From contig JAQGEQ010000255.1 of the NCBI GenBank assembly GCA_034620365.1, positions 496,001-560,000 of the forward strand: DNA of 64,000 nucleotides. The letters are read 5' to 3'. Below the pieces are notes generated by a model. That model made no database searches and was not told the origin of the DNA. It was given only the letters and a program-made list of their open reading frames with translations. The position numbers were made by a program, and so were the translations under genes. Source of the DNA: Pegea sp. RAD2-039 (lineage: Eukaryota; Chordata; Thaliacea; Salpida; Salpidae). Positions 8,350 through 64,000 of the stretch are shown piece after piece (position 1 is the stretch's first letter; every line of letters begins with the position of its first letter).

Positions 8350-9331
8350 TTGAAATTGTACCTATTATACACCAAAACATCTCTTTTAAAGTTTCAAGTT
8401 TATTTTTTGAGTTCCATAAGTTTCAAGGTATAAACAAATAATTGTACATTCGGTCATACTAGTTTAGGTACTTAAGAAAATTGCTGCCTTGCTCATAATC
8501 TTTATGTTTAATCTGTGAGTAGTTTTAAAGGTTCATGATTAAAAACTGACCTCAACCACTTTTAAAATATCTATCGTATCGTGAGATTAGATTATTGGTG
8601 CTACTTTAATTTTCAGAGCTAATCTGTCCAGCGTCAAAACCAAAAGTATCAGAAAGTGCAAGTTTTTTCTATCGATTATATTTATAAAATGAGTTACAAC
8701 TGTTTACTCAAAACTGTATTTAATGGTGAAATCTCACATGGTTGCAAAAGCAAATATGGCCAAAGAATATATAATGACCAAGTAGAATTGTTGAAAGAGT
8801 TAGATATACATATTCTCAATTGTTAAAAGTAACATCAGATTACGCAGCATAGAGCGTCGGCATCTTTGGTGATTCAATCTGAAATCGGTACTGTAAGAAA
8901 AGAAGAAAGCTCAACAAAGATACACAATCATCTAACAATCTTAATAATATCCATTGAAAATGCTGCTGGTTGTACTTTTCGCCCAAAGGCTTAATTAATT
9001 ACCATAAAACCGTGATTCAGGAATTAAACTTACTTTCTGTCGCTATTTCGTGGTTTATTTTTTGCAAATACTTCTTTTACTTTTATGTTCTTTCTTTTAC
9101 ATTGAACCCTCAAATCACTGCAAATATTTTAACTTAATCTTTGCTTCTGATTTTTCCGATATCGTTTTCTCAAACTGCTTTTATTTACAAAATTATTTAA
9201 AAGTAATTACCTCTGATGCTCTATTGCTTATCAGTTCAGCAACAATATTGAAACATCAGTAGCTTTTGATATTTGTAATTAAAACATATTTATTTATATG
9301 TCTCTCTTAAAATGTATGAAATGAGCTTTTG
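8350..9331. other. First spacer of the unit
   Basis: A+T-rich, no recognised gene. The same segment is at 20573-21557, 28037-29020, 40262-40670 (cut), 49243-50229 and 60275-61260. A 70-codon hydrophobic frame (9050-9262 here) is kept in most copies, but it has no domain, sits in a different frame from the LINE and is best read as chance. Sequence immediately upstream of the LINE fragment could be unrecognisable remains of the same element. Confidence 0.5.
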
Positions 9332-10310
9332 TAATTTGTAAAAATTATTTCAAGAATTTGGCAGCTCAGAATCCGGCCCACAAAATCTGAACTTATAACT
9401 TTTTCCAGTAAGCAAGCTGTAATTTGCTTGAACCAATACTTCATCAATAGATTTATTATTCAACGAGTATATTCGGTCCTAGACGTTGGCATTACTCTAT
9501 CATCTGACTTTAAATGGCGCAATTATGTTTCCAAAATCTTTGGAAAATCAATCAACCTTGTCTTTCTTATTATAAAGACCTTTAATTCTAAGAACCCATG
9601 GTTTTTTATCAATCTTTTCAAATTGTACGTACGTCCAACGCTTGAATACAATGTCAGTGCATGGATGTCATATCAAGTTAATGATATCAAAAAAATCGAA
9701 TCTGTTCAGGCCACATTTACGAGATTAGTATATAGGAAACTTAATATTAAATATGATAGTTATAAACATCGTCTCAGTCTCTTTAATTTAGACACTTTAG
9801 AAATTCGACGGATTAAATACGACTTAATTCTTTTTTTAAATTATCCACAATTTAATTGACTTCAGTTTAATGATTTCTTTTCCATTAATCCTTCCCTCAA
9901 GTTATATCAACTCAGACGACACACATTACACCTTAATAAGCCCATATCACCTGGTACATTGTCCAGAGCAAATTTTTTCTCATACCGTAAAATTAATACA
10001 TGGAATCAGCTGCCATCAGACATTGCCATGTCGAAGTCACTCGCGTTGTTCAAGCAGAAGTTGAACCGTTATAATATTGTCAACATTGTCATTTCTAAAC
10101 TGTGATTTTTTTCTTTCTTATATTATTAACATTCCATGTAATTGTTCACTGTCATATGCTTTGAGGGTTATCGAAATACCATGTGTTACATCATTTACTT
10201 TCTATATTTCTAACTAAATAGATGTTATTTGTGAGAATGTGTGTTAGCGAGAGGTGCTCTCTTCAGGTACCCTCCTTCGTATTTATTGAAACAAATAAAT
10301 AAATGAATTT
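9332..10310 (+). mobile_element. LINE (CR1/L2/Jockey type) 3' fragment, unit U1
   Basis: Remnant of the C-terminal part of a non-LTR retrotransposon reverse transcriptase. Words in order: WQLRI and KSELITFSS (start), LSSDFKW, YVRPTLEYNVSAW, DIKKIESVQATFTR, YDSYKHRL, LDTLEIRRIKYDLI, then after a frameshift near 9860 LRRHTLHL, FFSY, INTWNQLPSD and SKSLALFKQKL, with stop at 10103-10105. The polymerase core (YADD region), any endonuclease and ORF1 are missing, as in a 5'-truncated insertion. The 3' UTR ends in a GAGAG-GTG-CTCTC hairpin (10249-10261) and an A+T tail with AAATAAATAAATG. It cannot move by itself. The family level (CR1 versus L2 versus Jockey) is not settled. Confidence 0.85.
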
Positions 10311-10689
10311 GTATTCAAGCAATGTTTAACAGTTATTTACAAAACCAAATATGAAACGCACTAGTCATAATTTTCAAAAATTAGTTTTATTTCTATGAAT
10401 AATATAATTGTGGAATTTTTACAAGCATTTTGGTATTAAAAGTGAATTCAAATAGTGTTTTTATAATAAAAGAAGTGATGCGAATCATTTTAGAAATTTT
10501 TACAACAGAATTTGGTGTTTAATGTAAAATATATTTTCATTCTATGTAAAATGGTTGATTAGTATTTTGAAAAATTCACGACAAAGTTTAATATTCATTA
10601 AAAAATAAAACTTCTAACTCTTGCGGTTTCTTTTATAATTTTCATAATATTTAATTAAATAAGCGATATGCACGACAAATTACAAACAG

Positions 10690-10770
10690 TGTGTTACTTA
10701 AAATCCAATCAAAATAATGAAATGCAGAATGCCACGTCATCTAGGTGACGTCACTGTCGTTCCGGATCAC
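10690..10770 (+). promoter_or_regulatory. CCAAT box plus palindromic CRE (TGACGTCA), unit U1
   Basis: CCAAT at 10705-10709, a half site ACGTCA at about 10734-10739 and a perfect TGACGTCA at 10746-10753. The island is richer in G+C than its surroundings. TGACGTCA is the known binding site of CREB/ATF bZIP factors. Its position before the + strand exon train suggests a promoter, but the first exon-like segment lies more than 3 kb downstream and no TATA box was assigned. Confidence 0.45.
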
Positions 10771-10912
10771 TAATTTTCAACTTCGCTTGTAGTGTCGCTT
10801 CGCGGGTTTTACATCGCAATTTCAAACAACTGCGGGACTCAATCATCACGTCAGAATCCATTTGAAGAACAATAAACAACAAACAAAGTATCTGAAGATC
10901 CAGTTAGATTGT

Positions 10913-10943
10913 GTGTCATAAGCTCTTCAAATCATCGATCGTC
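10913..10943 (+). repeat. Short direct repeat, left copy (unit U1)
   Basis: About 28 bases around CTCTTCAAATCATCGATCGTC recur in direct orientation at 16619-16647, 5.7 kb away inside the same unit, and likewise in U3. Together with a second shared block (see the finding on permuted blocks) this points to an old duplication inside the unit. Confidence 0.6.
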
Positions 10944-10953
10944 TTTAATTGAG

Positions 10954-13900
10954 TCGTAGATAAGATCAAGTTATGATCTTAATAATGTATTCTGGTGACC
11001 TTATCATAAAATGAAGGAATACCAACAAGAATCTGGTTCTTTTCTTCCACTGTCACTAACATAAGTTATTTAGATCTTGTATAAGTAGATATTTTCACTA
11101 TCCGGTATCCTTCCATATCTAGCTGATTTATTCAAGTGTTCCCTATTTAAAGGAGGCATGAGATCAAGATTAAAGATGAAGACTACAAGATAAAGTCTTT
11201 CAGATAATGTCGTTACGTTTCTATGGCTACCTACAAAGCTCGGTGAAAAAACTCATCAACCAAAAACTAGTTAAATTAAAAATTTAAAACTTTGATTATT
11301 GATATTATGAATTATATGAATAAATGATATGATATAAGTAAAGTTAATCAAACATTTCAATTTAATTTGAAGAAAAATGAAATCAAAACAAGACACATAG
11401 ATAAAATTATTAAAAACTTTTAATATGAAATTGAAAGAAATTATTTTCAAAAAATCATTTGGATTTGTAAACTATTTTTTCATATATAGTTTAAATAAAT
11501 GATAGTATTAGATAGTACTTTTAATGTTGACGATACAATAACATTCTTTGCTGTTAACGTTGCTTTGGTTAAAGTAAGTGATGACTTGGCAACTTGAACC
11601 ATCAAGATCAATGTTTGCTTGAAAAATAATTATTTATTGAAATGAAGATATTATTTGAGAAGTTTTTAAAAGTCAAGCTGCAAAAATGGCGTTTTTGAAA
11701 TTCACGTGGTTTTTGATGATGTGTTGAAACCATACCGCAGTTCATGAATATATTTTTATCTAAACTTCCTGCAATGTTATAAAAACTTACATTCTTTTTA
11801 TGTAGAAAGATAACTAAAATTGGTTTTGTTAATAGCAAAATAGATTCACAAAATTGTTATTTGTTTAGTATATAGATAACTTAGCAAAATTTTATAAATT
11901 ATTTGTTTTTTAGTTGAAGATGAATTAAAAAGAATCATAATCGAAAATATATTCTATTTAATCTTCTTAATTATCATTTACTGAAAGAATTGCAAAAATA
12001 TTTTGGAAAAAGTTAAATGTTTAATACCTTTAATTGAATTGAATTTTAAATGTTAGTTTTAATAAAAATGATTTTCAAATTGACAATTTTAAGATATGTT
12101 TCATAACATAAAACTTTTTGAAGTTCTCATTATGAGGCATTCTTTATTAATCTTTTTGTAAAAGTTTGATAATAACTTAAATAGAAAGTTTTAATGAAAA
12201 ATAGTTTTCTGAATTCACTGCAATCTTGCAATTTCATAAAAAAGTTTTATTTGCTTACAACCATTTTTGTCGCTGTCTATCTTATGTTTTGACGTGACAA
12301 TTTATTTTTTGATTATTATCTGAAGATCGAACTTTAAATCTCTTCAAAATCAAGGTTAACATTTAGTAAACTTTAAAAAAGATTTCAATAATTGGAAAAA
12401 AGTTTTATTAAAACAAATTCAGTGTTAATAAACTAATAAGGAAATTTTCTTTTCGAACAGCAAGTTTTTTATTATTTTGAAATGTCTTTTATTTTATTTC
12501 TTTTATTTTTTGTTGTATTTTGATCCATACTTATGATAACATTAAAATTTCATGAAAACTTATTTATGAATTATTTTAATGTTCAAATTTATCTAATAAG
12601 TTTTATTTACAACTAAATTTATATGTCTTATAGAGAAGTAAAGGTATTTAAGGATTTTTGTAGCTTATAAATAAAAGGTTTTAAAGTATATTTTAACAAA
12701 ATTATTTCTCCATCACAACAGAAATTTTGAATTTTATAATTTACTTGATAAGTGGTTCATAAGAGTGGAATATTTTTATATTTTTGTTTATTTTCTTTAT
12801 TCACATAAATAATATTGAACTATTCTCTTAATACTTAAAAATAATTAATTAAATAAATATGTTTTATATTATAAAGTTATATAGCATTAGATTAAAATAA
12901 TTTTCCTTTACATAACAGTTGACTTATTATACTTAAACTAATTTTTTCTGTCTAAATAATTCATCAATTTATTTATAATTTTTGTATTTCGTAACTTCTT
13001 TTTCTAGCCCTAAGAAAATGTTTTTTATCTGAATGTAAGAAATACTCTAACTAACAGCAAATTATAGATTTGGTTTTATATTTCAGATTGTTGGATGTCA
13101 TTTTAACTAAATTTAAATAAGGCATTTGATATCAGCAAATAGAATGCCAAGATTTTTTTTTAAGATTAGTTGTAACTTGAATTGCAATATATGACTAAAG
13201 ACTTTTTACTATTAATTAAATTATCAAAGAATATAATCATAATAAAATTATGAAGTTTTTTATGTTTAATCTGATTGTTTTTAAACAGCTAAATTTAATC
13301 AAAAATTTTAATAAAAATGAGATGAACTTCAAACCTTACAAACTTCATCTGATACTGGATCAAAACATTAAAAGGTTTGTGATTTTTTATTTAATGTCTA
13401 AATATAATTTAGATATTATAATACAATCTTTTTTTAATTACTTAATTTATCTATAAAACAATTAGTTTTTATTTCATTTGTGTGCAATTATGTTGTTCTC
13501 TGTTGTATATAAAGATTGTGTATTTTGTTATATTGCAACCATGCATTAAATAATTAAATGAATTATTAATATGGTGTAAGCACAAATATTAATTATGATA
13601 ATTATGAGACTTCAGAATTACATTTAGAATGATTTGTTATTCTACTCTAGTATTTTAAACACATATATATCATAAATTTATAACATAATGTTGTTGAATT
13701 ATATCCTTATCATATTTAATCATTAACTTTCATCTCAACAATTAACTTTAGATTGTTAAGAAATACTTTTATTAAAAAAGCTAATATAAAAATTAATGAA
13801 AATTTTGGTGAAAAAAATCCCAAAAATTATATTAAGTTTAGAAAATGCGAAAGTTAGTTGTGTGAATTATAAAATTATTTGTCTAAAAATAAGAATAGCT

Positions 13901-14369
13901 AATATAATCAATCCTTCTATAGGCTTGATGTATTAATAAATTCCTAAAATTTAGTTTGACTTAACTGTTAGTTTATATATTTAATTATTTATCAAATCCA
14001 ACTCATTCAAACTTAAACCTAATATCGCTTTTTAAAAAGTAATTAAAATAAATTGAATGAAACTTAATTATAATCAATTATCAGATGTGTGGTATTACTT
14101 AAAGAAAACCTTCTCCATTAGAGGAAAGCAACTGCTCAAGCATTTGATAGATTATAGAAGAAAAGGATTCTAATCATTGATTATATGAAGTCAACCTCTG
14201 CATCTTGTAAGAATCAAAACACAATAAGTTATAGGAAAATCGTTTTTTTTGCACTAAGTAACTACAGTTAAGAGAATCAAATTATACTTCAGGTAAAGTT
14301 GTTGTTACTCATATTTGTGACCTTTATTAAAAGTTATTGGTTGAGTTTTCACTAAGACATGTTGTGCAG
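10954..14369. other. Long A+T-rich spacer between CRE island and exon train
   Basis: No recognised gene. Equivalent stretches: 22981-25368 (cut), 30434-34050, 40683-43334 (cut), 51646-55265, 62686-64000 (window edge). Two frames recur: a 76-codon minus frame (11608-11838; also 31288-31518, 52504-52734, broken in U2 and U6) and a 68-codon + frame (13250-13456; also 32928-33134, 54143-54343, broken in U4). Both have the composition of the surrounding DNA and no domain, so I do not call them genes. Confidence 0.5.
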
Positions 14370-14525
14370 GTTGTTCAGAAATGTTGGAGAGACTCATCTT
14401 ACTAGTACATTGACTTTTACGTTTTTATCAACCAACAAGACATAGTTACAAATAACATTTCTTTAAAACAACCTTGGTGTCCATGGTTAAAGATGCTGAA
14501 TATTCTTCTTGTTCTGCCATTTTGA
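14370..14525 (+). pseudogene. Exon-like segment 1 of + strand train (unit U1)
   Basis: Opens directly after a TTGTGCAG acceptor. In phase 0 it reads VVQKCWRDSSY, a stop, then YIDFYVFINQQDIVTNN and LKQPWCPWLKMLN, to TGA at 14523-14525. U4 carries the same exon without the internal stop. The words look like a host protein exon (Trp, Cys and Pro rich, unlike the A+T-rich background), but I recognise no family. A GTAAGA donor-like site lies a few bases beyond the stop. Confidence 0.35.
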
Positions 14526-15000
14526 TTTGTAAGAAATTTTCGACTATCAAGTTAATAATGATTTATTTTATTAACAAACCTTCTGCACAGTAGTCAAGAG
14601 TGTTGAGAATTCTGTTATTTCAAGAACTTTCACTGATAACTAGCTTCGATTATCTAAACCAACTAAAAAGTAACTTTTTTCAATTACACATCTTGTCCTT
14701 GGTGATTAAAAGTACTGACACGTTTCTTAGAATCCTCACAAGTTTTGTGTTTGATGTTTGAATCAGTTCTCTTCAGCTTCTAGCATCTTCAAATACATAA
14801 ACTATACAACAAATAATAGTGCAATAATGATTACTTATACCTAAGCTAAACCTTGGGCTATTGGTGAACGTGCTTCTGACTATAGTAGTTCTAGAACTTT
14901 GAATTTAACTTTTCTTTGAACATTGTAATTAAACTTATTTCAATTTTGATGTCACTGAAAGTTTGCTGATTGGTTCAACAACTATTTTAAATTTTGGCAG

Positions 15001-15077
15001 GTTGCTATAATTACGTAACAGCATCTTTAAAGACGTGGAAATCGTGTCTGGCAGTCTTCATCTTATCTCTTTATTAA
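15001..15077 (+). pseudogene. Exon-like segment 2 with a hydrophobic stretch (unit U1)
   Basis: Follows a TTTTGGCAG acceptor. The frame starting at 15003 reads CYNYVTASLKTWKSC then LAVFILSLY and stops at TAA 15075-15077. A different frame over the same bases (DVEIVSGSLHLISLLTRG) is also open, so the assignment is weak. Copies in U3, U4 and U5 keep the acceptor and the sequence (near 34682, 43965 and 55897). The hydrophobic LAVFILSLY could be the start of a membrane segment. Confidence 0.25.
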
Positions 15078-15177
15078 CTAGAGGAATTTTACATCTATTA
15101 TTCAATAAGAACTTTTGAAACTGAAAGTAGTTTGCCTAGAAAAAGAATTATCCAAATTCTAAACATTCGATTTCAGT

Positions 15178-15256
15178 GATTTTGGAGGAAGACTTTTGTG
15201 ATGCTCCTTTACCTGATCTTATATCACTAAGAAGGAACAGAAGAAGATTAATATGA
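15178..15256 (+). pseudogene. Exon-like segment 3 (unit U1)
   Basis: After a CGATTTCAG acceptor one frame reads ILEEDFCDAPLPDLI and then an Arg-rich tail LRRNRRRLI before a stop. In U3, U4 and U5 the frame ends just after DAPLPD (GATGCT or GATTCT followed by TAA). The acidic, proline-containing word is coding-like; family unknown. Confidence 0.28.
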
Positions 15257-15577
15257 TGATTTGTTGAAAGCTCATTAAAAGTAAGTTGAATTTGTTTTTA
15301 ACTAAATTGAAATCAAATTTTATTAAGTATTTGTCACGATATATTTGTATTGGTTGAATGTTAACTTCTAAAAATAAACTTCATTATTACTTGATCAAAA
15401 TAAATAAAATCGTAATAAAGCAAAAGTTAACTAATGGAAAAAAATCTGGTTCCTGAAGATACAAGTTTTATGTAATAACCAGAATTGACCGAGAACGGTC
15501 ATGATAAGTTAGATGCAAAAGTGTTTTCAAAAACAGAGAAAAATACAATTAGAAAATAACTAAAATTTTGTTTACAG

Positions 15578-15754
15578 TTTCCTGTTTTCATTGATGCTGG
15601 GTTTTCTGTCATTGAGTTGTATGCGGAGTAGAGAACAACCATTGGAGGGATCATCGTCAATATCTTCCAATTTGCTGGTAAAATGGGCTTTAATTATAGT
15701 CTTAAATGTCTTCCATCACCCACAAAATTGGAGTCTAACCTCATCCGAAGATGA
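15578..15754 (+). pseudogene. Exon-like segment 4 (unit U1), GGIIVNIFQFAGKMGFNYSL motif
   Basis: Starts right after a TTTGTTTACAG acceptor. Phase 0 reads FPVFIDAGFSVIELYAE, one TAG, then RTTIGGIIVNIFQFAGK, MGFNYSLKCLPSPTK and LESNLIRR to TGA 15752-15754 (58 codons). The piece G-I-x-x-N-I-F-Q-x-A-x-K-M-x-F-N-Y-S looks like the start of a ligand-binding lobe of ionotropic glutamate receptor-like proteins (G-x-x-x-D-I-x-x-x-I-A-x-x-L-x-F-x-Y). That is a resemblance only: the segment order in the train does not fit that family and the TAG breaks it. A second frame (15564-15764) is also open for 66 codons. Confidence 0.3.
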
Positions 15755-16003
15755 AACCAAATGATTTGTCTTCATTTCTGGTTCTCGATCCTAACTACAT
15801 GATCTCTTATTTCATCAGATCCATAACTAGTGATTGCTAGAATTTATATTTGTTTTCAAGATGTTTCATCGTCAAGATATAAATAATCAGTTGATCAACA
15901 ACCTAATCACATCCACTACTCTTCACAATAATGATAAAACTCTCTAAAATCTGCAGATAAATTCTCTTTACTTTCAAAAACTTCATTAAATTTTACATTT
16001 CAG

Positions 16004-16087
16004 TTTTCTACAAACATACAAACTCATCGAGTGGTTGAAGAACGGGAAGGACTTTTTGTTGTGATCGCCTATTTCTTTTGTGAGTAG
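16004..16087 (+). pseudogene. Exon-like segment 5 (unit U1)
   Basis: After a TTACATTTCAG acceptor, phase 0 reads FSTNIQTHRVVEEREGLFVV then IAYFFCE and stops at TAG 16085-16087. The frame continues past it with coding-like words (SYVSFDVKMEMGV), so the original exon was probably longer. A 73-codon minus frame on the opposite strand is open in U4 and U5 (44702-44923, 56906-57127), so strand is not certain. Family unknown. Confidence 0.3.
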
Positions 16088-16438
16088 GACACATGAACAA
16101 GAAACTTATCATATGTATCTTTTGATGTAAAGATGGAAATGGGAGTGTGAAGTTACATGTGAGGAAATATTTGTAGTTTAATCTAATATTTGTTTTGTAA
16201 AAGTCTTCGTCATAACCCAGACATTTTTCAAAGTTATCTCCTTACTAAAGCTGACATAAGGATACTTCTAGCCACAAGCAGCTGTTTACTTGAAAAAGCT
16301 TTATATAAATAGTTATTATCACTTTAATTTATTCAATTTATATAATTTATTCCATGCACGAATTGTTTTGTCGCTATTGGAGCTTAATATAGATACTACC
16401 TAGCAACGATTAAGATAATTTCTTTTTGGTGTACCTAG

Positions 16439-16608
16439 TATAAGGCAACAGTTATTAGAGAATGAAATATTAAAATTGATAAAAACTCTTAACCATGCAG
16501 TGATACTAGAAGGGATGTCTGGTGGAGCAACCAATACTTCAGGATTAACAGAAGTTTGAAGCTTCAGAAGAAGCAGTAAATTCAATGGAACCAAATAGAG
16601 AAGACTGA
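16439..16608 (+). pseudogene. Exon-like segment 6 (unit U1), LLENEILKLIKTLN and GGATNTSG
   Basis: Opens after a TTTCTTTTTGGTGTACCTAG acceptor. The frame from 16440 reads IRQQLLENEILKLIKTLNHA, then VILEGMSGGATNTSGLTEV and TGA at 16557. One base over, the following bases read KFEASEEAVNSMEPNRED to TGA 16606-16608, clearly coding-like, so either a 1-bp shift or a small intron (TTAACAG before AAG) separates them. The first part looks like a short amphipathic or coiled-coil helix. The opposite strand carries a 64-codon frame (16400-16594) that I take as its shadow. No family recognised; it may be the last exon of the train. Confidence 0.38.
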
Positions 16609-16618
16609 GTAGTTGTGC

Positions 16619-16647
16619 GTCATCAGCTTTTCAAATCATCGATCGTC
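16619..16647 (+). repeat. Short direct repeat, right copy (unit U1)
   Basis: Partner of 10913-10943. It is followed by CACGTCACATCACTGATCACC-like sequence and then (16805-16885) by a block similar to 10655-10730. In U5 this copy is removed by the deletion near 57491. Confidence 0.6.
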
Positions 16648-17340
16648 GTCGTACAAAAACTAAACGATTCCGTTAGGTGAATGACCTTTAGTGACCCCAC
16701 AACACGTCACATCACTGATCACCATGTGCAACTAACCGTGAAGAGATGATGAATGATTATTAAACTTTCCATTTTAGCGATTTTTTTTTCTAAATTTTTA
16801 AGATGTTTTATTTAATAAGCGAATAAAGGCTTGAAAATTACTAAAAAAGTGTTATGTAAAATCCGCCTGAAATTTATGAAATGCTATTTTATCAACTGTT
16901 TTTTCCAAAACTTTAAGATATCCACAATTTTTGAAATTGATCTAGAAATAAAAACAGTTAGTTTGAAAATAACCTTAGAGTTGCTTAAGATCTCCAATTA
17001 GTAGATCTTGGGTGCTAGATCTCTCAGGCTAATTGTGACAAAGACACTAGATGTAAACCTGAGACAAATATAAATTTAAATAAAATTTTTGTGAAAAAAA
17101 TACTTCACTAGATGAATATCGTCAACCTTGCTTAGTAGCTTAAATAGCAAAATAAAATTTTAAAATTGATGTCTACTCAAATGTTTACTTTCTAGTACAA
17201 TGTCAATGAAGTCTATAGTAGTTCATTCTACTTTGTATAATCAACAAATCTGATACTTATGTATGTAGAAAGTATGACAGCAAACTAGTACCTCATAACT
17301 TCTTTAAAGGTTGAAACTAAGTAAAGTTGACCATTGTAAG

Positions 17341-17424
17341 ATGACACAGAAAGCAACTGTATCTTATTTGAGGGAGCTGGTTCAGAAACACGAATTTCTT
17401 TTGCTATCCAACCATTCATTCTAA
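17341..17424 (+). CDS. 27-codon + strand frame MTQKATVSYLRELVQKHEF (unit U1)
   Basis: ATG to TAA, reading MTQKATVSYLRELVQKHEF then LLLSNHSF. It is an island of coding-like composition and is open in all four copies that retain it (U1, U3, U4, U5). The amphipathic LRELVQKHEF could be a helix. It may be the start of an old gene whose next exon is lost, or a short peptide frame. No recognisable donor immediately follows. Confidence 0.3.
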   Translation: MTQKATVSYLRELVQKHEFLLLSNHSF

Positions 17425-18600
17425 AAACATTATTATCTAATCAACAGAATTTTAATGTGTCATTAGTAATTTTATAACCAGGAAGATAAAATTATTTTTC
17501 TTTTTGGCTTTCTTCATTAGATCTAAGAAAAATTGAAGTGTGACGAATTTACCTTTAGGGTTTTTATGTATAAGTAGATTGAAATTGAATTCATCTGTTG
17601 TTATTTTCAACAATCACAAAGGAATGAGATTGATCAGTAATCTTATGAACTGACTGCTATGTCCTCTATGATCTTCATCTTCGGATTCGAATCCTTCCAT
17701 GATATCAGAAGTTTAGAAAACTGCGCAATATAAGAAGATCAATTTTTACAAGATTTGTAAACTAATATCAATTCTAAAAGTCTTAATTAAAACATAAAAT
17801 TGCTAGTACGTTTTACAAGGAGGATCTCCAATCTGCAGATATCAGGCTTCATCTATTTTAAGTTTGAAGATTGATAAGACAAAAAAAAATAGTAAGATAT
17901 ATGTTATTTAAAAAATATATAAAATCTTGCAACTATCTATGATTTAGAAAACTTTTAGGAAGGCTCAAAGGTTGAAATTAAATCTCTAAAAGTTGAATTG
18001 GTAGCTTCCTGGTATTTTTCACTTTTTTATTTGATAAAAATATGTAAGTTTTTACTGTGATTACTTTAACAGGTAAAGTCGCTCAGCATTTTGAAGATTT
18101 AAAGTATGATTAATATCTTGAGTTTTTCGTAAAAAATGATTACTAGTCGATATCACATAGACTTAAAATTTTTTCATGATTTCATTGCATAATCTTTTGA
18201 CTTCACTAGAGTATGGTCGACTTTAGACTTAAGCTTTTTTACAATAAGTTTGCATTTTTTGACTTTGAATTTTTCAGTTTTACTTTTTTATAGTTACTTA
18301 TTTAAATCAGGGAATATCTTAAAATAGAAGTAGAATCTGTAATTATCTAACCTATAAGATATTTGAAGTAATATTTGAATTTTTTAGATTTCCAGGATTA
18401 TTTGTAGGACTTTTGACAGTTTAATTTCTTACCAGAAGCTTGAAGAAACTTTTGAATCATGGTGAAAACCCGAAGTTCAGCAAAAAGTAACTAATTTTTA
18501 ATATTTTATTTTTAAATATCTGTTTTTTATTTTACTAAACTTTTTTTTCATTTGTTTTAGTGGTAAAATCAAATTTCACGATAATTTGAGACAAATTTAA
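17425..18600. other. Second spacer of the unit
   Basis: A+T-rich with no recognised gene. Equivalent: 25382-26080 (cut), 37109-38290, 46114-47290; nearly all deleted in U5. A tRNA T-arm-like word (GGGTTCAAATCCC at about 37367 in U3; weaker in U1 and U4) was examined and rejected as a tRNA. A 63-codon frame in U4 (46803-46994) has background composition. Confidence 0.5.
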
Positions 18601-18750
18601 GACTTTAGTATCTAGGACACAATGTTTATTGTATAATTATGAAAATGAGTCCAAATAATTAAAAAAAAAAATGAAATTGTTAAACTTATAAATTAATTTG
18701 TCAAATATATCCTTTTTGATGAGAAACATGTTGCAGAATTTTGCCTGGAT

Positions 18751-19339
18751 TCAGTCCTCATCTAATAAGAACAAACATGGATACAACTTATTCTCATTGT
18801 AAGGAAGAACAACTTTTTGTACTGATCTGAGATCAAGATTTTTGAGTTCGGGGATAGTAGGGACTTGATTATTTGCAATTTGAGGAGCAAGTGATTCTTT
18901 AAATTGGATCGGTTGATCTACATCACTTTCACTGTTACATCCAACTTTAAGATATTCATTTTCTTTTTTCTTCTCTTTTTTGGATTTGGTTCTTGAGAAA
19001 TTGTCACTGTTCGACTGACGACGGTGGTTTGGTTGATCAGTTTGGTTTTTCTTCATTTGGTGTTGATTGCTAAAAAAATAAAAAAAATAAAAGTTTGTAA
19101 TAACGAATGTTGAAAATTGAATTTTGAATTTGACTTACTTTAGGGGATTTACCCGAATGTGATTCAAATAAAGTCTCATAGCCAGAGTTCTTAGATCGAA
19201 GTTTGACCGGCAGTTGATGTTTTTTAGTGTTTCTAAACTTCATTGTTGATGAAGCAGCAAAAGACATCATTGGGTTAGAGGAGCTCAGAGACAATAAAGC
19301 ATCGATCGCGTCGCATTCTTTTTCATTTAGATGAAACAC
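18751..19339 (-). pseudogene. Two-exon gene remnant for a nuclear-type protein (unit U1)
   Basis: Exon 1 (19339-19139, 67 codons) begins at a GTG where U2-U4 have ATG, reads FHLNEKECDAIDALLSLSSS, and ends ...LFESHSGKSPK. A 69-bp intron (19138-19070) has GTAAGT and TTTTTTTAG borders and phase 0. Exon 2 runs to TGA 18751-18753. An AATAAA signal lies at 18630-18625. The model protein is 173 residues: a short acidic-hydrophobic motif (residues 9-20) similar to Sin3-interacting SID helices, a basic KKRRKK (98-103) that fits a nuclear signal, and a C-terminus LPYNENKLYPCLFSLDED. In U1 exon 2 starts out of frame (A5 instead of A6, giving an early TGA) and a second 1-bp loss restores frame before NEYLKVGCN. 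Host origin inferred; family not recognised. Confidence 0.5.
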
Positions 19340-19349
19340 GTTGCTGCTT

Positions 19350-19407
19350 CACGTGTTTGTTTTAAAGTATGTAGGTATTGTCTACTAAAAAGAAAATGAT
19401 GACGTCA
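19350..19407 (-). promoter_or_regulatory. E-box and CRE upstream of the minus-strand gene, unit U1
   Basis: CACGTG at 19350-19355 and a perfect palindromic TGACGTCA at 19400-19407, 11 and 61 bases upstream of the start codon position. Spacing fits a proximal promoter or 5' leader. Known binders are bHLH factors and CREB/ATF factors. No TATA box assigned. Confidence 0.45.
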
Positions 19408-19461
19408 TACATCGAAAGTAGAAGCGAGAACAAATCCAAATTACAACCAGCCTCATAAACA

Positions 19462-19479
19462 TGAAGCAATCATGCTTCA
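19462..19479. repeat. Inverted repeat TGAAGCA-ATCA-TGCTTCA
   Basis: Perfect 7-bp arms with a 4-base spacer, about 55 bp beyond the CRE, followed by TTACGCGC. Kept in U2, U4 and U5; U3 has one arm change (TGAAACA). It could be a dimer-binding operator or a chance palindrome. Confidence 0.4.
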
Positions 19480-20040
19480 GTTACGCGCAAAACATTTGTT
19501 AAGATCATTTAAGCACGTTGAAACAATATTTTTATTATGTAAAAAAATTACTTTTAATCTAAAAATGCATTCTCTTAGATAGATACTCAAAAGCAAACTT
19601 AAATTTTCTGTTGCTTTAAATAGTAAAACAAGAATATTACTTAAAACATAACAAGTAAAAACAGTAGCAGCCAAGTTTAGCTAACTTCACTCACTCTTTT
19701 TCAACAGCATTGAACATTCAAAAAGTTATTTAGTCTGTTATAAGCAAAAAGATAACATACACAACCTTACATTCAGAAAACCTAATACTGTGCTATAGCT
19801 TAAACTACAGATACTATTTTCTTATAATAAACTTCAAGTTGTTTCAAAAGTTATTTAAAGATAACTGTTTAGACTTAAATTATTTGTGTTCATATAAACA
19901 AATAATATTTTAAATATTGTTTTACAGAATGTCACAAATATTTCTATTATACATTTTTGGTACTGATTATTTAGTATTATCGTTTTGTATTTGTTACATT
20001 TGCTATATATAAAATGAAGTATTAATAAATGCTATAATTT
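19480..20040. other. A+T-rich stretch between minus-strand gene and small divergent frames
   Basis: No recognised gene. A 65-codon minus frame (19477-19674 in U1 only) is not kept open in all copies and has background composition. Equivalent stretches: 26942-27502, 39168-39727, 48149-48708, 59181-59740. Confidence 0.45.
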
Positions 20041-20246: not shown

Positions 20247-20345
20247 TGGTTTCTATATGTCTATGTCACAAATAAAAACAAAAAAAGCATTCTATTTTTT
20301 TAAGAACTAGTAAGAGTTTTTATTATTGAAACTTTTGTACTAACA

Positions 20346-26801: not shown

Positions 26802-26811
26802 GTTGCTGCTT

Positions 26812-48008: not shown

Positions 48009-48018
48009 GTTGCTGCTT

Positions 48019-54600: not shown

Positions 54601-55265
54601 TATCATATTTAATCATTAACTTTCATCTCAACAATTAACTTTAGATTGTTAAGAAATACTTTTATTAAAAAAGCTAATATAAAAATTAATGAAAATTTTG
54701 GTGAAAAAAATCCCAAAAATTATATTAAGTTTAGAAAATGCGAAAGTTATTTGTGTGAATTATAAAATTATTTGTCTAAAAATAAGAATAGCTGATATAA
54801 TCAATCCTTCTATAGGCTTGATGTATTAATAAATTATAGAACTTTAAATTGACTTAACAGTTAGTTTATATATTTAATTATTTATCAAATCCAACTCTTT
54901 CAAACTTATACCTAATATCTCTTTTTAAAAAATAATTAAAATAAATTGATTGAAACTTAATTATAATCAATTGTCAGATGTGTGGTATTACTTAAAGAAA
55001 ACCTTCTCCATTAGAGGAAAGCAACTGCTCAAGAATTTGATAGATTATGGAAGAAAAAGGATTCTAATCATTGATTATATGAAGTCAACCTTTGTGCATC
55101 TTGTAAGAATCAAGACACAATAACTTATAGCAAAATTGTTTTATTTGCACTAAGTAACTCAAGTTAAGAGAATCAAATTATACTTCAGGTAAAGTTGTTG
55201 TTACTCATATTTGTGACCTTTATTAAAAGTTATTGGTTGAGTTTTCAATAAGAAATCTTGTGCAG

Positions 55266-55421
55266 GGTGTTTAGAAGTGTTGGAGAGACTCATCTTACTA
55301 GTACATTGACTTTTACGTTTTTATCAACCAACAAGACATCGTTGCAAATAACATTTCTTTAAAACAACCTTGGTGTCCATGGTTAAAGATGCTGAATATT
55401 CTTCTTGTTCTGCCATTTTGA
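55266..55421 (+). pseudogene. Exon-like segment 1, unit U5
   Basis: Same segment; the third codon is TAG and the SSY-stop block is present, so the copy is doubly broken. The later words FYVFINQQDIV and LKQPWCPWLKMLN are kept. Confidence 0.33.
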
Positions 55422-56476
55422 TTTGTAAGAACTTTTCGACTATCAAGTTAATAATGATTTATTTTATTAACAAACCTTCTTCACAGTAGTCAAGAGTGTT
55501 GAGAATTCTGTTATTTCAAGAACTTTCACTGATAACTAGCTTCGATTATCTAAACCAACTAAAAAGTAACTTTTCTCAATTACACATCTTGTCCTTGGTG
55601 GTTAAAAGTACTGACACGTTTCTTAGAATCCTCACAAGTTTTGTGTTTGATGTTTGAATCAGTTCTCTTCAGCTTCTAGCATCTTCAAATACATAAACTA
55701 TACAACAAATAATAGCGCAATAATGATTACTTATACCTAAGCTAAACCTTAGGCTATTGGTGAACGTGCTTCTGACTATAGTAGTTCTAGAACCTTGAAT
55801 TTAACTTTTCTTTGAACGTTGTAATTAAACTTATTTCAATTTTGATGTCACTGAAAGTTTGCTGATTGGTTCAACAACTATTTTAAATTTTGGCAGGTTG
55901 CTATAATTACGTAACAGCATCTTTAAAGACGTGGAAATCGTGTCTGGCAGTCTTCATCTTATCTCTTTATTAACTAGAGGAATTTTACATCTATTATTCA
56001 GTAAGAACTTTTGAAACTGAAAGTAGTTTGCCTAGAAAAAGAATTATCCAAATTCTAAACATTCGATTTCAGCGATTTTGGAGGAAGATTTTAGTGATGC
56101 TCCTTTTCCTGATTCTTAAATAACTAGGGAAGGAACAGAAGAAGATTAATATGATGATTTGTTGAAAGCTCATTAAAAGTCAGTTGAATTTATTTTTAAC
56201 TAAATTGAAATCAAATTTTATTAAGTTTTTGTCACGAAATATTTTTATTGGTTGAAAATTTAACTTTTAAAAATAAACTTCATTATTACTTGATCAAAAT
56301 AAATAAAATCGTAATAAAGCAAAAGTTAACTAATGGAAGAAAATCTGGTTCCTGAAGATACAAGTTTTATGTAATAACCAGAATTGACTGAGAACGGTCA
56401 TGATAAGTTAGATGCAAAAGTGTTTTCAAAAACAGAGAAAAATACAATTAGAAAATAACTAAAATTTTGTTTACAG

Positions 56477-56652
56477 TTTCCTGTTTTCATTGATGCTGGG
56501 TTTTCTGTCATTGAGTTGATGCGGAGTAGAGAACACCAAATGGAGGGATCATCTTCAATATCTTCCAAATTGCTGGTAAAATGGGTTTTAATTATAGTCT
56601 CAAATGTCTTCCATCACCCACAAAATTGGAGACTAACCTCATCCGAATATGA
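56477..56652 (+). pseudogene. Exon-like segment 4, unit U5
   Basis: FPVFIDAGFSVIEL continues into MRS because one base is missing compared with U1/U3, so the GGIIFNIFQIAGKMGFNYSL part is out of frame with the start. The second frame here is open to KLLVKWVLIIVSN. In U4 most of this segment is deleted. Confidence 0.3.
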
Positions 56653-56901
56653 AACCAAATGATTTGTCTTCATTTCTGGTTCTCGATCCTAACTACATGA
56701 TCTCTGATTTCATCAGATCCATAACTAGTGATTGATAGAATTCTTATTTGTTTTAAAGACGTTTCATCGTCAAGATATAAATAATCAGTTGATCAACAAC
56801 CTAATCACATTTACTAATCTTCACAATAATGATAAAACTCTCTAAAATCTGCAGATAAATTCTCTTTACTTTCAAAAACTTCATTAAAATTTACATTTCA
56901 G

Positions 56902-56985
56902 TTTTCTACAAACATACAAACTCATCGAGTGGTTGAAGAACGGGAAGGACTTTTTGTTGTGATCGCTCATTTCTTTTATGAGTAG
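56902..56985 (+). pseudogene. Exon-like segment 5, unit U5
   Basis: Same reading as U4 and the same TAG. Confidence 0.3.
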
Positions 56986-57334
56986 GACACATGATCAAGA
57001 AACTTATCATATGTATCTTTTGATGTATAGATGGAAATGAGAGTGTGAAGTTACATGTGAGGAAATATTTGTAGTTTAATCTAATATTTGTTTTGTAAGT
57101 CTTCGTCATAACCCAGACATTTTTCAAAGTTTTCTCCTTACTAAAGCTGACATAAGGCTACTTCTAGCCACAAGCAGCTATTTACTTGAAAAAGCTTTAT
57201 ATAAATAGTTATTATCACTTTAATTTATTCAATTTATATAATTTATTCCATGCACGAATTGTTTTGTCGCTATTGGAGCTTAATATAGATACTGCCTAGC
57301 AACGATTAAGATAATTTCTTTTTGGTGTACCTAG

Positions 57335-57491
57335 TATAAGGCAACAGTTATTAGAAAATGAAATATTAAAATTGATAAAAACTCTTAACCATGCAGTGAT
57401 ACTAGAAGGGATGTCTGGTGGAGCAACCAATACTTCAGGATTAACAGAAGTTTGAAGCTGCAGAAGAAGCAGTAAATTCAATGGAACCAAA
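57335..57491 (+). pseudogene. Exon-like segment 6, unit U5, 3' end deleted
   Basis: Same acceptor and start; the end is cut after ...NSMEPN by the 47-bp deletion that joins directly to the ATCGTCGTCGTAC block. Confidence 0.38.
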
Positions 57492-57494
57492 TAT
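57488..57494. other. Short deletion junction in U5
   Basis: About 47 bp lost between CCAAAT and ATCGTCGTCGTAC, compared with U1, U3 and U4. Confidence 0.7.
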
Positions 57495-58189
57495 CGTCGT
57501 CGTACAAAAATTAAACGATTCCGTTAGGTGAATGACCTTTAGTGACCCCACAACACGTCACATCACTGATCACCATGTGCAGCTAACCGTGAAGAGATGA
57601 TGAATGATTATTAAACTTTCCATTTTAGCGATTTTTTTCTAAATTTTTAAGATGTTTTATTTAATAAGCGAATAAAGGCTTGAAAATTACTAAAAAAGTT
57701 TTATGTAAAATCCGCCAGAAATTTATGAAACGCCATTTTATCAACTGTTTTTTCCCAAACTTTAAGATATCCACAATTTTTGAAATTGATTTACAAATAA
57801 AAACAGTTAGTTTGAAAATAACCTTAGAGTTGTTTAAGATCTCCAATTAGTAGATCTTGGGGGCTAGATCTCTCAGGCTAATTGTGACAAAGACACTAGA
57901 TGTAAACCTGAGACAAATATAAATTTAAATAAAATTTTTGTGAAAATAATACTTCACTAGATGAATATCGTCAACCTTGCTTAGTAGCTTAAGTAGCAAA
58001 ATAAAATTTTAAAATTGATTTCTACTCAATTGTTTACTTTCTAGTACAATGTCAATGAAGTCTATAGTAGTTCATTCTACTTTGTATAATCAACAAATCT
58101 GATACTTATGCATGTAGAAAGTATGACAGCAAGCTAGTATCTCATAACTTCATTAAAGGTTGAAAGTAAGTAAAGTTGACCATTGTAAG

Positions 58190-58273
58190 ATGACACAGAA
58201 AGCAACTGTCTCTTTTTTGAGGGAGCTGGTCCAGAAACACGAATTTCTTTTGCAATCCAACCATTCATTCTAA
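58190..58273 (+). CDS. 27-codon + strand frame, unit U5
   Basis: MTQKATVSFLRELVQKHEF then LLQSNHSF; same length. The big U5 deletion starts about 45 bp downstream. Confidence 0.28.
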   Translation: MTQKATVSFLRELVQKHEFLLQSNHSF

Positions 58274-58316
58274 AAACATTATTATCTAATCAACAGAATT
58301 TTAATGTGTCATTAGT

Positions 58317-58368
58317 AAGTAATCATTAAATTAATTAAATAGTAATTAAAAGTAGTCATTAAAAAAAA
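58317..58368. other. Deletion junction in U5 with patchwork filler
   Basis: About 1.2 kb is missing (U3 about 37150 to 38345). The join holds about 50 bp made of repeated variants of the left-flank word GTCATTAGTAAT (AGTAATCATTAA, TAGTAATTA, AGTAGTCATTAA) before the A-run of the right flank. Confidence 0.75.
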
Positions 58369-58450
58369 AAATGAAATTGTTTAACTTATAAATTAATATG
58401 TCAAATATATCCTTTTTGATAAGAAACATGTTGCAGAATTTTGCCTGGAT

Positions 58451-59040
58451 TCAGTCCTCATCTAATGAGAACAAACATGGATACAACTTATTCTCATTGT
58501 AAGGAAGAACAACTTTTTGTACTGATCTGAGATCAAGATTTTTGAGTTCGGGGATAGTAGCGACTTGAATATTTGCAATTTGAGGAGCAAGTGACGCTTT
58601 AAATTGGATCGGTTGATCTACATCACTTTCACTGTTACATCCAACTTGAAGATATTAATTTTCCTTTTTTCTTCTCTTCTTTGGATTTGGTTCTTGAGAA
58701 ATTGTCACTGCTCGACTGACGACGGTGGTTAGGTTGATCAGTTTGGTTTTTCTTTATTTGGTGTTGATTGCTAAAAAAATAAAAAAAATAAAAGTTTGTA
58801 ATAACGAATGTTGAAAATCGAATTTTGAATTTGACTTACTTTAGGGGATTTACCCGAATGTGATTAAAATAAAGTCTCATAGCCAGAGTTCTTAGATCGA
58901 AGTTTGACGGGCAGTTGATGTTTTTTAGTGTTTCTAAACTTCATTGTTGATGAAGCAGCAAAAGACATTATTGGGTTAGAGGAGCTCAGAGACAATAAAG
59001 CATCGATCGCGTCGCATTGTTTTTCATTTAGATGATACAC
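58451..59040 (-). pseudogene. Two-exon gene remnant, unit U5
   Basis: Start codon is GTG (as in U1); exon 1 59040-58840, intron 58839-58771, exon 2 to TGA 58451-58453. Carries the Glu59 stop, the five-A run and the NEY stop shared with U4. The 3' flank with the AATAAA seen in other units lies inside the U5 deletion. Confidence 0.48.
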
Positions 59041-59050
59041 GTTGCTGCTT

Positions 59051-59108
59051 CACGTGTTTGTTTTAAAGTATGTAGGTAATGTCTACTAAAAAGAAAATCA
59101 TGACGTCA
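59051..59108 (-). promoter_or_regulatory. E-box and CRE upstream of the minus-strand gene, unit U5
   Basis: Same arrangement; TGACGTCA at 59101-59108. The octamer is unchanged in all five copies. Confidence 0.43.
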
Positions 59109-59740
59109 TACATCGAAAGTAGAAGCGAGAAAAAACTTAAATTGCAACCAGCCTCATAAACATGAAGCAATCATGCTTCAGTTACGCGCAAAACATTTGT
59201 TAAGATCATTTAAGCACGTTGAAACAATATTTTTATTATGTAAAAAAAATTACTTTTAATCTAAAAATGCATTCTCTTAGATAGATACTCAAAAGCAAAC
59301 TTAAATTTTCTGTTGCTTTAAATAGTAAAACAAGAATATTACTTAAAACATAACAAGTAAAAACAGTAGCAGCCAAGTTTAGCTAACTTCACTCACTCTT
59401 TTTCAACAGCATTGAATATTCAAAAAGTTATTTAGTCTGTTATAAGCAAAAAGATAACATACACAACCTTACATTCAGAAAACCTAATACTGTGCTACAG
59501 CTTAAACTACAGATACTATTTTCTTATAATAAACTTCTAGTTGTTTCAAAAGTTATTTAAATATAACTGTTTAGATTTAAATTATTTGTGTTCATATAAA
59601 CAAATAATATTTTAAATATTGTTTTACAGAATGTCACAAATATTTCTATTATACATTTTTGGTACTGATTATTTAGTATTATCGTTTTGTATTTGTTATA
59701 TCTGCTATATATAAAATGAAGTATTAATAAATGCTATAAT

Positions 59741-59950
59741 TTCATGTCAATGTTGCATTTAATATTTGTTTATTAACTTCTTCAGTATTAAAGTGTACAT
59801 GATTCTTATACTTTCTATTCAAATATTTTAATAAATTTTTACTAATGTTTGCCCTGGTGTATGTAAACATTTGTCCACTTATTATCATGAATCTGTAAAA
59901 AGATGATTGATACTTCTGTTTTTGTATTTTGTAATTTTTTGCGTCAAATG
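59741..59950 (-). pseudogene. 68-codon minus frame, broken copy (unit U5)
   Basis: Same 1-bp loss as U1, plus further substitutions. Confidence 0.3.
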
Positions 59951-60047
59951 GTTTCTATATTTCTATGTCACAAATAAAAACAAAAAAAACATTCTATTTT
60001 TTTAAGAACTAGTAAGAGTTTTTTTTATTGAAACTATTGTACTAACA

Positions 60048-60215
60048 ATGCAAAATCTTTATTGCAAAGTTTGTAAAAAATATAAGCTTGGAAATTGTAT
60101 AAACTTTATGCCTACAAATTATCGTTTATTAAATAAAGATATAACACGTGCAGAACAACTTTCAGTTTGTTGTGTTTGCTGCTCAGAAATACTACCCAGC
60201 AACTTAAAACAGTAG
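60048..60215 (+). CDS. 55-residue C-x2-C frame, unit U5
   Basis: Cysteine pairs kept; AEQLSVCC as in U4, end EILPSNLKQ as in U1/U2. Confidence 0.33.
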   Translation: MQNLYCKVCKKYKLGNCINFMPTNYRLLNKDITRAEQLSVCCVCCSEILPSNLKQ

Positions 60216-61260
60216 CATCAAAGATATAAAATTCAAGATGAATATATAACTTCTCCCTATTATAAGCCACCTGCTTGAAATTGTACCTATTATACACCAA
60301 AATATCTCTTTTAAAGTTTCAAGTTTATTTTTTGAGTTCCATAAGTTTCAAGGTATAAACAAATAATCGTACATTCGGTCATACTAGTTTAGGTTCTTAA
60401 AAAAATCGCTGCCTTGCTCATAATCTTTATGTTTAATCTGTGAGTAGTTTTAAAGGTTCATGATTAAAAACTGACCTCAACCACTTTTAAAATATCTATC
60501 GTATCGTGAGATTACATTATTGGTGCTACTTTAATTTTCAGAGCTAAGCTATCTAGCGTCAAAACCAAAAGTATCAGAAAGTGCAAGTTTTTTCTATCGA
60601 TTATATTTATAAAATGAGCTACAAGTGTTTACTCAAATCTGTATTTAATGGTGAAATCTCACATGGTTGCAAAAACAAAAATGATCCAAAAATATATAAT
60701 GATCAAGTAGAATTGTTGAAAGAGTTAGATATACATATTCTCAATTGTTAAAAATTAACATCAGATTACGCAGCATAGAGCGTCGGCATCTTTGGTGATT
60801 CAATCTGAAATCGGTACTGTAAGAAAAGAAGAAAGCTCAACAAAGATACACAATCATCTAACAATCTTAATAATATCCATTGAAAATGCTGCTGGTTGTA
60901 CTTTTCGCCCAAAGGCTTGATTAATTACCATAAAACCGTGATTCAGGAATTAAACTTACTTTCTGTCGCTATTTCGTGGTTTATCTTCTGCAAACACTTC
61001 GTCTTTTTTTATGTTCTTTCTTTTACATTGAACCCTCAAATCACTGCAAATATTTTAACTGAATCTTTGCTTCTGATTTTTCTGATATCGTTTTCTCAAA
61101 CTGCTTTTATTTACAAAATTATTTAAAAGTAATTACCTCTGATGCTCTATTGCTTAGCAGTTCAGCAACATTATTGAAGCATCAGTAGCTTTTTATATTT
61201 GTAATTAAAACATATTTATTTATATGTCTCTCTTAAAATGTATGAAATGAGCTTTTGTAA

Positions 61261-62240
61261 TTTGTAAAAATTATTTAAAGACTTTGGCAGCTCAGAATCC
61301 GGCCCACAAAGTCTGAAATTAAAACTTTTTCTCGTAAACCAGCTGTAAATTCCTTGAACCAATACTTCATCAATAGATTTATTATTCAACGAGTATCTTC
61401 GGTTCTAAACCTTGACTTACTCTATCATCTGACTTTAAATGGCGCAATTATGTTTCCAAAATCTTTGAAAAATCAATCAACCTTGTCTTCCTTATTATAA
61501 AGACCTTTAATTCTAAGAACCCATGATTTTTTATCAATCTTTTCAAATTGTACGTACGTCCAACACTTGAATACAATGTCAGTGCATGGATGCCATATCA
61601 AGTTAATGATATCAAAAAAATCGAATCTGTTCAGGCCACATTTACAAGATTAGTATATAGGAAACTTAATATTAAATATGATAGTTATAAACATCGTCTC
61701 AGTCTCTTCAACTTAGATACTTTAGAAATTCGACGGATTAAATACGACTTAATTCTTATTTTTAAAATTATCCACAATTTAATTGACTTCAGTTTGATAA
61801 TTTCGTTTCCATTAGTACTTCCCTCAAGTTATATCAACTCAGACGATGCACATTACACCTTAATAAGCCTATATCACCTGGTACATTGTCCAGAGCAAAT
61901 TTTTTCTCATACTGTACAATTAATACATGGAATCAGCTGCCATCAGACATTGCCATGTCGAAGTCACTCGCGTTGTTCAAGCAGAAGTTGAACCGTTATA
62001 ATATTGCTAACATTGTCATTTCTAAACTGTGATTTTTTTCTTTCTTATATTATTAACATTCCATGTAATTGTTCACTGTCATATGCTTTGAGTGATATCG
62101 AAATACCATGTGTTACATCATTTACTTTCTATATTTCTAACTAAATAGATGTTATTTGTGAGAATGTGTGCTAGCGAGAGGTGCTCTCTTCAGGTACCCT
62201 CCTGTGCATTTATTGAAATAATTAAATAAATAATGTAATT
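61261..62240 (+). mobile_element. LINE 3' fragment, unit U6
   Basis: Same insertion. From YVRPTLEYNVSAWMPYQ onward the frame is open to LIIFKIIHNLI-type sequence, then shifts near 61783 at the same place as U1. The 3' hairpin and A+T tail are present. Confidence 0.85.
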
Positions 62241-62621
62241 TGTATTCAAGCAATGTTTAACAGTTATTTACAAAACCAAATATGAAACGCACTAGTCATA
62301 GTTTTCAAAAATTAGTTTTATTTCTATGAATAATATAATTGTGGAATTTTTACAAGCATTTTGGTATTAAAAGTGAATTCAAATAGTGTTTTTATAATAA
62401 AAGAAGTGATGCGAATTATTTTAGAAATTTTTTACAACAGAATTTAGTGTTTTATGTAAAATATATTTTCATTTTATGTAAAATGGTTGATTAGTATTTT
62501 GAAAAATTCACGACAAAGTTCAATATTCATTAAAAAATAAAACTTCTAATTCTTGCGGTTTCTTTTATAATTTTTATAATATCTGATTTAATAAGCGATA
62601 TGCGCGACAAATTACTAACAG

Positions 62622-62702
62622 TTTGTTACTTAAAATCCAATCAAAATAATGAAATGCAGAATGCCACGTCATCCAGGTGACGTCACTGTCGTTCCGGATC
62701 AC
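62622..62702 (+). promoter_or_regulatory. CCAAT box plus CRE, unit U6
   Basis: Same island; perfect TGACGTCA at 62678-62685. All five copies that still have the island keep the octamer unchanged. Confidence 0.42.
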
Positions 62703-64000
62703 TAATTTTCAACTTTGCTTGTAGTGTTGCTTCGCGGGTTTTACATCGCAATTTCAAACAACTGCGGGACTCAATCATCACGTCAGAATCCATTTGAAGA
62801 ACAATAAACAACAAACAAAGTATCTGAAGATCCAGTTAGATTGTGTGTCATCAGCTCTTCAAATCATCGATCGTCCTTAATAGAGTCGTAGATAAGATCA
62901 AGTTATGATCTTAATAATGTATTCTGGTGACCTTATCATAAAATGAAGGAACACCAACAAGAATCTGGGTCTTTTCTTCCACTGTCACTAACATCAGATA
63001 TTTAGATCTTGTATAAGTAGATATTTTCACGATCCGGTATCCTTCCATATCTAGCTGATTTATTCAAGTGTTCCCTATTTAAAGGAGGCATGAGATCAAG
63101 ATTAAAGATGAAGACTACAAGATAAAGTCTTTCAGATAATGTTGTTACGTTTCTATGGTTACCTACAAAGCTCGGTGAAAAAACTCATCAACCATAAACT
63201 AGTTAAATTAAAAATTTAAAACTTTGATTATTGATATTATGAATTATATTAATAAATGATATGATATAAGTAAAGTTAATCAAACATTTCAATTTAATTT
63301 GAAGAAAAATGAAATCAATACAAGAGACATAGATAAAATTATTAAATACTTTTAATATGAAATTGAAAGAAATTATTTTCAAAAAATCATTTGGATTTGT
63401 AAACTATTTTTTCATATACAGTTTAAATAAATGATAGTATTAGATAGTACTTTTAATGTTGACGATACAATAACTTTCTTTGCTGTTAACGTTGCTTTGG
63501 TTAAAGTAAGTGATGACTTGGCAACTTGAACCATCAAGATCAATGTTTGCTTGAAAAATAAGAATTTATTGAAATGAAGATATTATTTGAGAAGTTTTTG
63601 AAAGTCAAGCTACAAAAATGGCTTTTTTATAATTCACGTGGATTTTGATGATGTGTTGAAACCATACCGCAGTTCATGATTTTATGCTTATCTAACCTTC
63701 CTGCAATGTTATAAAAACTTACATTCTTTTTATGTAGAAAGATAACTAAAATTGGTTTTGTTAATAGCAAAATAGATTCACAAATCTGTTATTTGTTTAG
63801 TATATAGATAACTTAGCAAAATTTTATAAATTATTTGTTTTTTCAGTTGAAGATGAATTAAAAAGAATCATAATCAAAAATATATTCTATTTAATCTTCT
63901 TAATTATCATTTACTGAAAGAATTGCAAAAATATTTTGGAAAAAGTTAAATGTTTAATACCTTTAATTGAATTGAATTTTAAATGTTAGTTTTAATAAAA

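Follow-up and report, generated by a model that had tools for sequence, protein, structure and literature searches.

A likely macrosatellite-like tandem array in the salp Pegea sp., most units of which lack the body of a PCGF-like gene

The window analysed here is a stretch of 64,000 nucleotides from the salp Pegea sp. RAD2-039 (C58:496001-560000, C58 being contig JAQGEQ010000255.1 of an assembly of 105.7 Mb in 387 contigs). From position 8350 onwards it consists of a direct tandem array of a long, formerly gene-bearing segment, and not of a short satellite. A preliminary description had proposed six consecutive copies in the same orientation running to the window edge, the first and third agreeing in length to 2 bp. 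Self-BLAST of the window bears out both the arrangement and the lengths (12,223 and 12,225 bp). Six units do lie in the window; however, the sixth is not the last. When C58:486001-496000 and C58:560001-730000 were joined to the window and unit 1 was mapped on the resulting 244 kb with BLAST, the array was found to continue to C58:674725, so that it spans 170,376 bp (C58:504350-674725) and shows traces of 15 units. The array thus occupies 504-675 kb of a 976,595-bp contig, away from the contig ends; the ampliconic, centromere-near or sex-linked position raised in the preliminary description is conjectural.

Positions within the unit are given as phases, with unit 1 as the reference (phase p corresponds to window position 8349+p). 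The units range in length from 3,673 to 16,741 bp, and only units 1 and 3 cover phase 1-12223 with nothing deleted or inserted. The array begins and ends exactly on a unit boundary, at phase 1 and phase 12223, respectively. With a slash marking the border, the sequence is GATGAAT/TTGAAATTG on the left, CCACCTGC/TTGAAATTG at the inner borders shown and CCACCTGC/TTGGGTTG at the right end. These whole-number ends and the shared TTG suggest a local tandem duplication, in which TTG was likely the microhomology used in the first event. The G+C content is 27.3% in the array and 27% in the C58 region. As direct tandem units of more than 1 kb, the copies fall within the length range of macrosatellites (as in PMC4132748).

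Units 8 and 15 have, in place of phase 10435-11470, 3.2-3.4 kb of sequence arranged as at a paralogous locus on contig C50. Since these two units keep the C50 arrangement, we take the gene-bearing state as ancestral, and the original unit probably carried a Polycomb-type RING (PCGF-like) gene of six exons. The predicted gene, with its ATG at phase 10428, is open over six exons with GT-AG borders and would encode proteins of 826 amino acids (aa; unit 8) and 754 aa (unit 15). Its C3HC4 RING finger is closest to those of PCGF proteins, the best solved-structure matches being a RING2-BMI-1 chimera (E 9e-12) and PCGF5 (E 5e-9), with RNF4 at E 9e-8. The gene is thus like PCGF5 and BMI-1 in the RING finger, but differs from them in its long last exon and in the RAWUL domain (PF16207), the match to which is weak and below the cutoff (E 0.11; 13.4 bits against 33.5); the solved-structure search gave no relevant match for RAWUL. 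The last exon contains stretches that, presumably, resemble SUMO-interaction motifs. Compared with the C50 paralogue (1,906 aa), point estimates of dN/dS were 0.58 for unit 8 and 0.57 for unit 15, and any constraint may sit on the C50 side. Further copies of the gene family occur in clusters on C50, C72, C94 and C282, many of them with stops.

The most striking feature of the array is that the same gene-less version is present in 13 of the 15 units. All 13 have the identical left junction, ATGGATA/CAACTT, located 7 bases inside the coding region, which argues for a single replacement event; the comparison covers the left junction, and unit 10 ends at phase 11128. Two stretches of the replacement segment, 216 and 527 bp long, match a locus on C381 with 88-89% identity, in antisense orientation relative to the PCGF-like gene. 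The C381 gene carries C2H2 zinc fingers and is presumably KLF-like. The two-exon gene remnant of the preliminary description was recovered as well, and it is most likely a minus-strand fragment (18754-19348) related to this zinc-finger gene.

Several lines of evidence indicate that the units exchange sequence. The mean pairwise substitution divergence among the 15 units is 3.49% (standard deviation 0.39, 105 pairs) and shows no relation to distance along the array (Mantel r 0.027, p 0.42). Shared biallelic sites number 623 in the 11,919 columns represented in 10 or more units, compared with about 82 in a simulated star burst (108 in the largest of 20 runs). Mean r2 falls from 0.278 at less than 25 bp to 0.098-0.104 beyond 400 bp, where the shuffled level is 0.099. 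In addition, a search for significantly long identical tracts among the 105 unit pairs (300 permutations) placed four pairs, 9-14, 8-15, 3-10 and 1-8, above the global 95% threshold. Profiles of local divergence, drawn for five pairs, gave 0-0.8% over phase 1001-3500 for units 9 and 14, 0.2-0.4% over phase 9501-10434 for units 8 and 15, and 0.4% just past a shared deletion for units 4 and 6. Setting aside an indel of 0.2 kb, units 8 and 15 have gene inserts with 99.2-99.7% identity, and the exchanged tract diverges by 0.2-0.9%, compared with 3.8% for the two units overall. Linkage decay together with the long identical tracts shows statistically that sequence passes between the copies by non-allelic gene conversion, beyond what a star phylogeny would give, as in a concertedly evolving array.

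The deletions tell a similar story. The 12 junctions compared have the features expected of end joining, either an overlap of 0-9 bp or filler of 1-149 bp. The units had been described as damaged independently, and this holds in part, as many have their own deletions, filler or insertion; however, two deletions are shared, and tracts pass between copies. A second deletion in unit 4, of about 265 bp around phase 7276-7539 with a 9-bp overlap, has an identical junction in unit 6, and another is common to units 14 and 15 with a nearly identical junction, although the overall divergences of these pairs (3.36% and 3.70%, respectively) are near the average.

One route by which the array grew is also visible. 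Between units 11 and 12 lies a stretch of 4,383 bp (i2), about 4.05 kb of which is 96-98% identical to the right flank; it is followed by phase 8551, after which unit 12 goes on as a unit. At a paralogous locus on C72, flank is likewise followed by phase 8551-9505, but the sequence then continues as right flank, and a 464-bp piece of the unit (phase 9042-9505) is also found 4 kb past the right end of the array. The order in unit 12 is explained by an exchange between flank and unit inside the 955-bp segment at phase 8551-9505. To judge from this order of segments, the junction shows an unequal crossover via a flanking repeat.

The remainder of the unit was also surveyed. The long interspersed nuclear element (LINE) fragment of the preliminary description belongs to a dispersed repeat (phase 1009-1962). 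The two cyclic-AMP response elements (CREs) described per unit are likewise present, as TGACGTCA at phases 2397 and 11051. This octamer occurs 10 times in the window, against 0.36 expected from shuffles, but the 10 are copies of two sites and not independent; as 22% of the 147 8-mers with a central CG are also fully kept across units, CRE retention is weak evidence of function. All 13 candidates for phase 1-1011 gave matches, and these were confined to C58. For phase 1971-8541, with 40 of 69 candidates scored, matches outside the array comprised patches of 70-79% identity on many contigs (phase 7136-8411), three short patches of 83-89% at C58:202825-203339 and small pieces. Across the 35 overlapping open reading frames (ORFs) of at least 50 aa in unit 1, the variable sites summed by codon position were 293, 299 and 306, without a third-position excess as a coding signature. 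To judge from these sites, the remaining sequence of the unit behaves as non-coding DNA in slow decay. No tRNA was listed in the window by ARAGORN, and nothing was listed from Rfam at the gathering threshold.

Taken together, our analyses favor, with a probability of roughly four in five, a macrosatellite-like tandem segmental duplication with a PCGF-like gene, grown by unequal crossing-over and mixed by conversion. A 12.2-kb segment carrying the gene would have been duplicated first, the border suggesting a 3-bp TTG microhomology, and would then have grown to about 15 units by unequal crossing-over, as at the unit 12 junction, while non-allelic gene conversion mixed the units. In one unit the gene body would have been swapped, in a single event, for 1,036 bp that include part of a zinc-finger gene, and the gene-less version may have reached 13 of the 15 units by crossing-over, conversion or drift. 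Finally, the gene of the terminal unit 15 would have been exchanged with that of unit 8, in either direction, later than the rest of the two units diverged. A more specific version, in which the null PCGF-like form spread by biased non-allelic conversion and the intact form was copied back from the terminal unit, we regard as doubtful; if true, the array would document a natural case of conversion drive between working and null copies.

Several observations weigh against this reading. Copy number and unit order are taken entirely from the assembly, and 101 of the 105 unit pairs, units 4 and 6 among them, fail the test for long identical tracts. A minimum of 283 exchange events was computed, a count that recurrent mutation inflates. 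Polishing with short reads could produce apparent mosaics on a scale of about 150 bp, but not tracts of 2.5 kb and 4 kb or the shared deletions. Seven of the 35 short unit 1 ORFs are free of stops and gaps in every scored unit, and it is possible that a small coding exon is among them. Moreover, the genes of units 8 and 15 differ at 1 synonymous and 11 non-synonymous positions besides the 0.2-kb indel, giving no sign of constraint within the array.

An alternative hypothesis is that the array is kept for a function, either through the dosage of the PCGF-like gene or through transcripts that regulate the dispersed PCGF-like family. In its favor, two gene copies are open, both CREs are fully kept and the regions flanking the gene are retained in most units. 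However, 13 of the 15 units are without the gene body, the rest of the unit has no codon signature, and the two CREs count for little next to the equally kept 8-mers. We consider such a function improbable. It is also unlikely that the array is an assembly artefact, in which the assembler multiplied or mixed up one or a few real units and polishing created the mosaic, because the units have their own variants. Although linkage decays on the scale of short reads, many units carry a deletion, filler or insertion of their own, the borders are clean, all 13 matches to phase 1-1011 are on C58, and the tracts of 2.5-4 kb are longer than short reads. A single burst, for example by rolling-circle amplification or re-insertion of an extrachromosomal circle, with each unit decaying alone since, was suggested by the even pairwise divergence and the lack of a distance effect, but in its pure, star-like form it is rejected by the shared sites, the linkage decay, the shared deletions and the significant identical tracts and is very improbable, whereas a burst followed by conversion is possible. 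A mobile element such as a Helitron, suggested by the clean integer borders, is considered unlikely, as TTG microhomology explains the border and phase 1-1011 was found only on C58. The unit ends, TTGAAATTG and CCACCTGC, carry no recognizable element-like motif and do not resemble Helitron ends, and none of the 7 ORFs scanned, of the 35 in unit 1, gave a match at its cutoff.

The tandem duplication grown by crossing-over and conversion has well-known counterparts. In the opsin and globin clusters, tandem genes undergo non-allelic gene conversion and include pseudogene units. The array is like these clusters in that working and broken copies lie side by side and exchange tracts; it differs in that the same gene-less version fills 13 of the 15 units and in that 6-7.5 kb without close copies elsewhere (phase 1-8550 minus the LINE and dispersed patches) was co-amplified. 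According to PMC4132748, the human RNU2 macrosatellite has a 6.1-kb unit in 5-82 copies, and it shares with the array kilobase-scale head-to-tail units with gene sequence and unequal exchange; titles cited in the same paper refer to the concerted evolution of RNU2. Unlike RNU2, the array has a 12.2-kb unit and has lost the gene body from most units. The satellite-rich, copy-number-variable regions of Brachionus asplanchnoidis are also tandem repeats, but according to PMC8447722 they consist mainly of 143- and 154-bp monomers in arrays of up to megabases with elevated G+C, in contrast to the 12.2-kb unit and 27.3% G+C seen here. Among the papers searched, none was found on macrosatellite tandem arrays of invertebrates or on PCGF in rotifers. 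The array is likely macrosatellite-like and under concerted evolution, an ordinary, known kind of sequence evolution and not a new system. With about 15 long units, growth by unequal crossover, non-allelic conversion, deletion by end joining and the spreading of a gene loss are all legible in one sequence. The features of the window are listed in Table 1.

Table 1. Units of the array and other features, in window positions
Feature	Position	Strand	Remarks
End of left flank adjoining the array	8101..8349		no other copy listed in the 244 kb
Unit 1	8350..20572	+	full, 12,223 bp
3' fragment of dispersed LINE	9358..10311	+	phase 1009-1962; in about 12 units
CRE palindrome TGACGTCA	10746..10753	+	phase 2397; kept in 12/12 units covering the site
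Old dispersed element or gene-family remnant	15485..16759		70-79% patches, many contigs
955-bp segment, also in flank of paralogous loci	16900..17854	+	phase 8551-9505; crossover site of unit 12
Upstream region of PCGF-like gene, to 7 bases inside coding start	17855..18783	+	phase 9506-10434
1,036-bp replacement for gene body	18784..19819	-	phase 10435-11470
About 0.5-kb part of replacement	19330..19831		85-87% copies on C92, C96, C134
CRE palindrome TGACGTCA	19400..19407	+	phase 11051; kept in 13/13 units covering the site
Downstream region of PCGF-like gene	19820..20572	+	phase 11471-12223; 89-93% copies at paralogous loci
Unit 2	20573..28036	+	7,464 bp; without phase 4793-9567, 12-bp filler at 25369-25380
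Unit 3	28037..40261	+	full, 12,225 bp
Unit 4	40262..49242	+	8,981 bp; without phase 420-3348 (4-bp overlap)
Unit 5	49243..60274	+	11,032 bp; without phase 8249-8292 and 9121-10308 (39-bp filler)
Unit 6	60275..64000	+	leaves window at edge; whole unit C58:556275-568229

Beyond the window, unit 13 contains a 4.5-kb LINE insert with an open frame of 876 aa followed, after a stop, by another 147 aa; the insert ends in (AAAT)n and includes reverse transcriptase and endonuclease domains (757 residues scanned). A 19-bp target-site duplication was suspected from a BLAST overlap, but it is not clear in the (AAAT)n-ended sequence and was not retained.

Several minor observations concern the wider gene family. 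The PCGF-like copies on C50 include open frames of 963 and 1717 aa. Some copies on C72 and C94 score the same and are perhaps overlapping haplotypes. Between C72:84001-90000 and C58:670797-673972, identity is 98.4% over 1.4 kb of the PCGF-like gene but 93% in the downstream segment, a contrast for which exchange between loci is a possible cause. Identically scoring PCGF-like RING fingers at C229:7758-7976 and C230:1292-1510, with 39% identity to the array gene, are perhaps a conserved family member on duplicate contigs. Among the scored candidates, the 0.5-kb part of the replacement has eight copies on C92, three on C134 and one on C96, and one C92 pair, 28.6 kb apart, may represent another long-unit duplication. 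A search of the assembly for the telomere repeat TGTGGG, the type of bdelloids, gave no match; TTAGGG repeats (86 matches) were found at the starts of C108 and C125 and as runs on C139 and C342. Finally, BLAST offsets indicate a tandem repeat with a 288-bp period and about 12 copies at C58:685058-688601, 10 kb past the end of the array.

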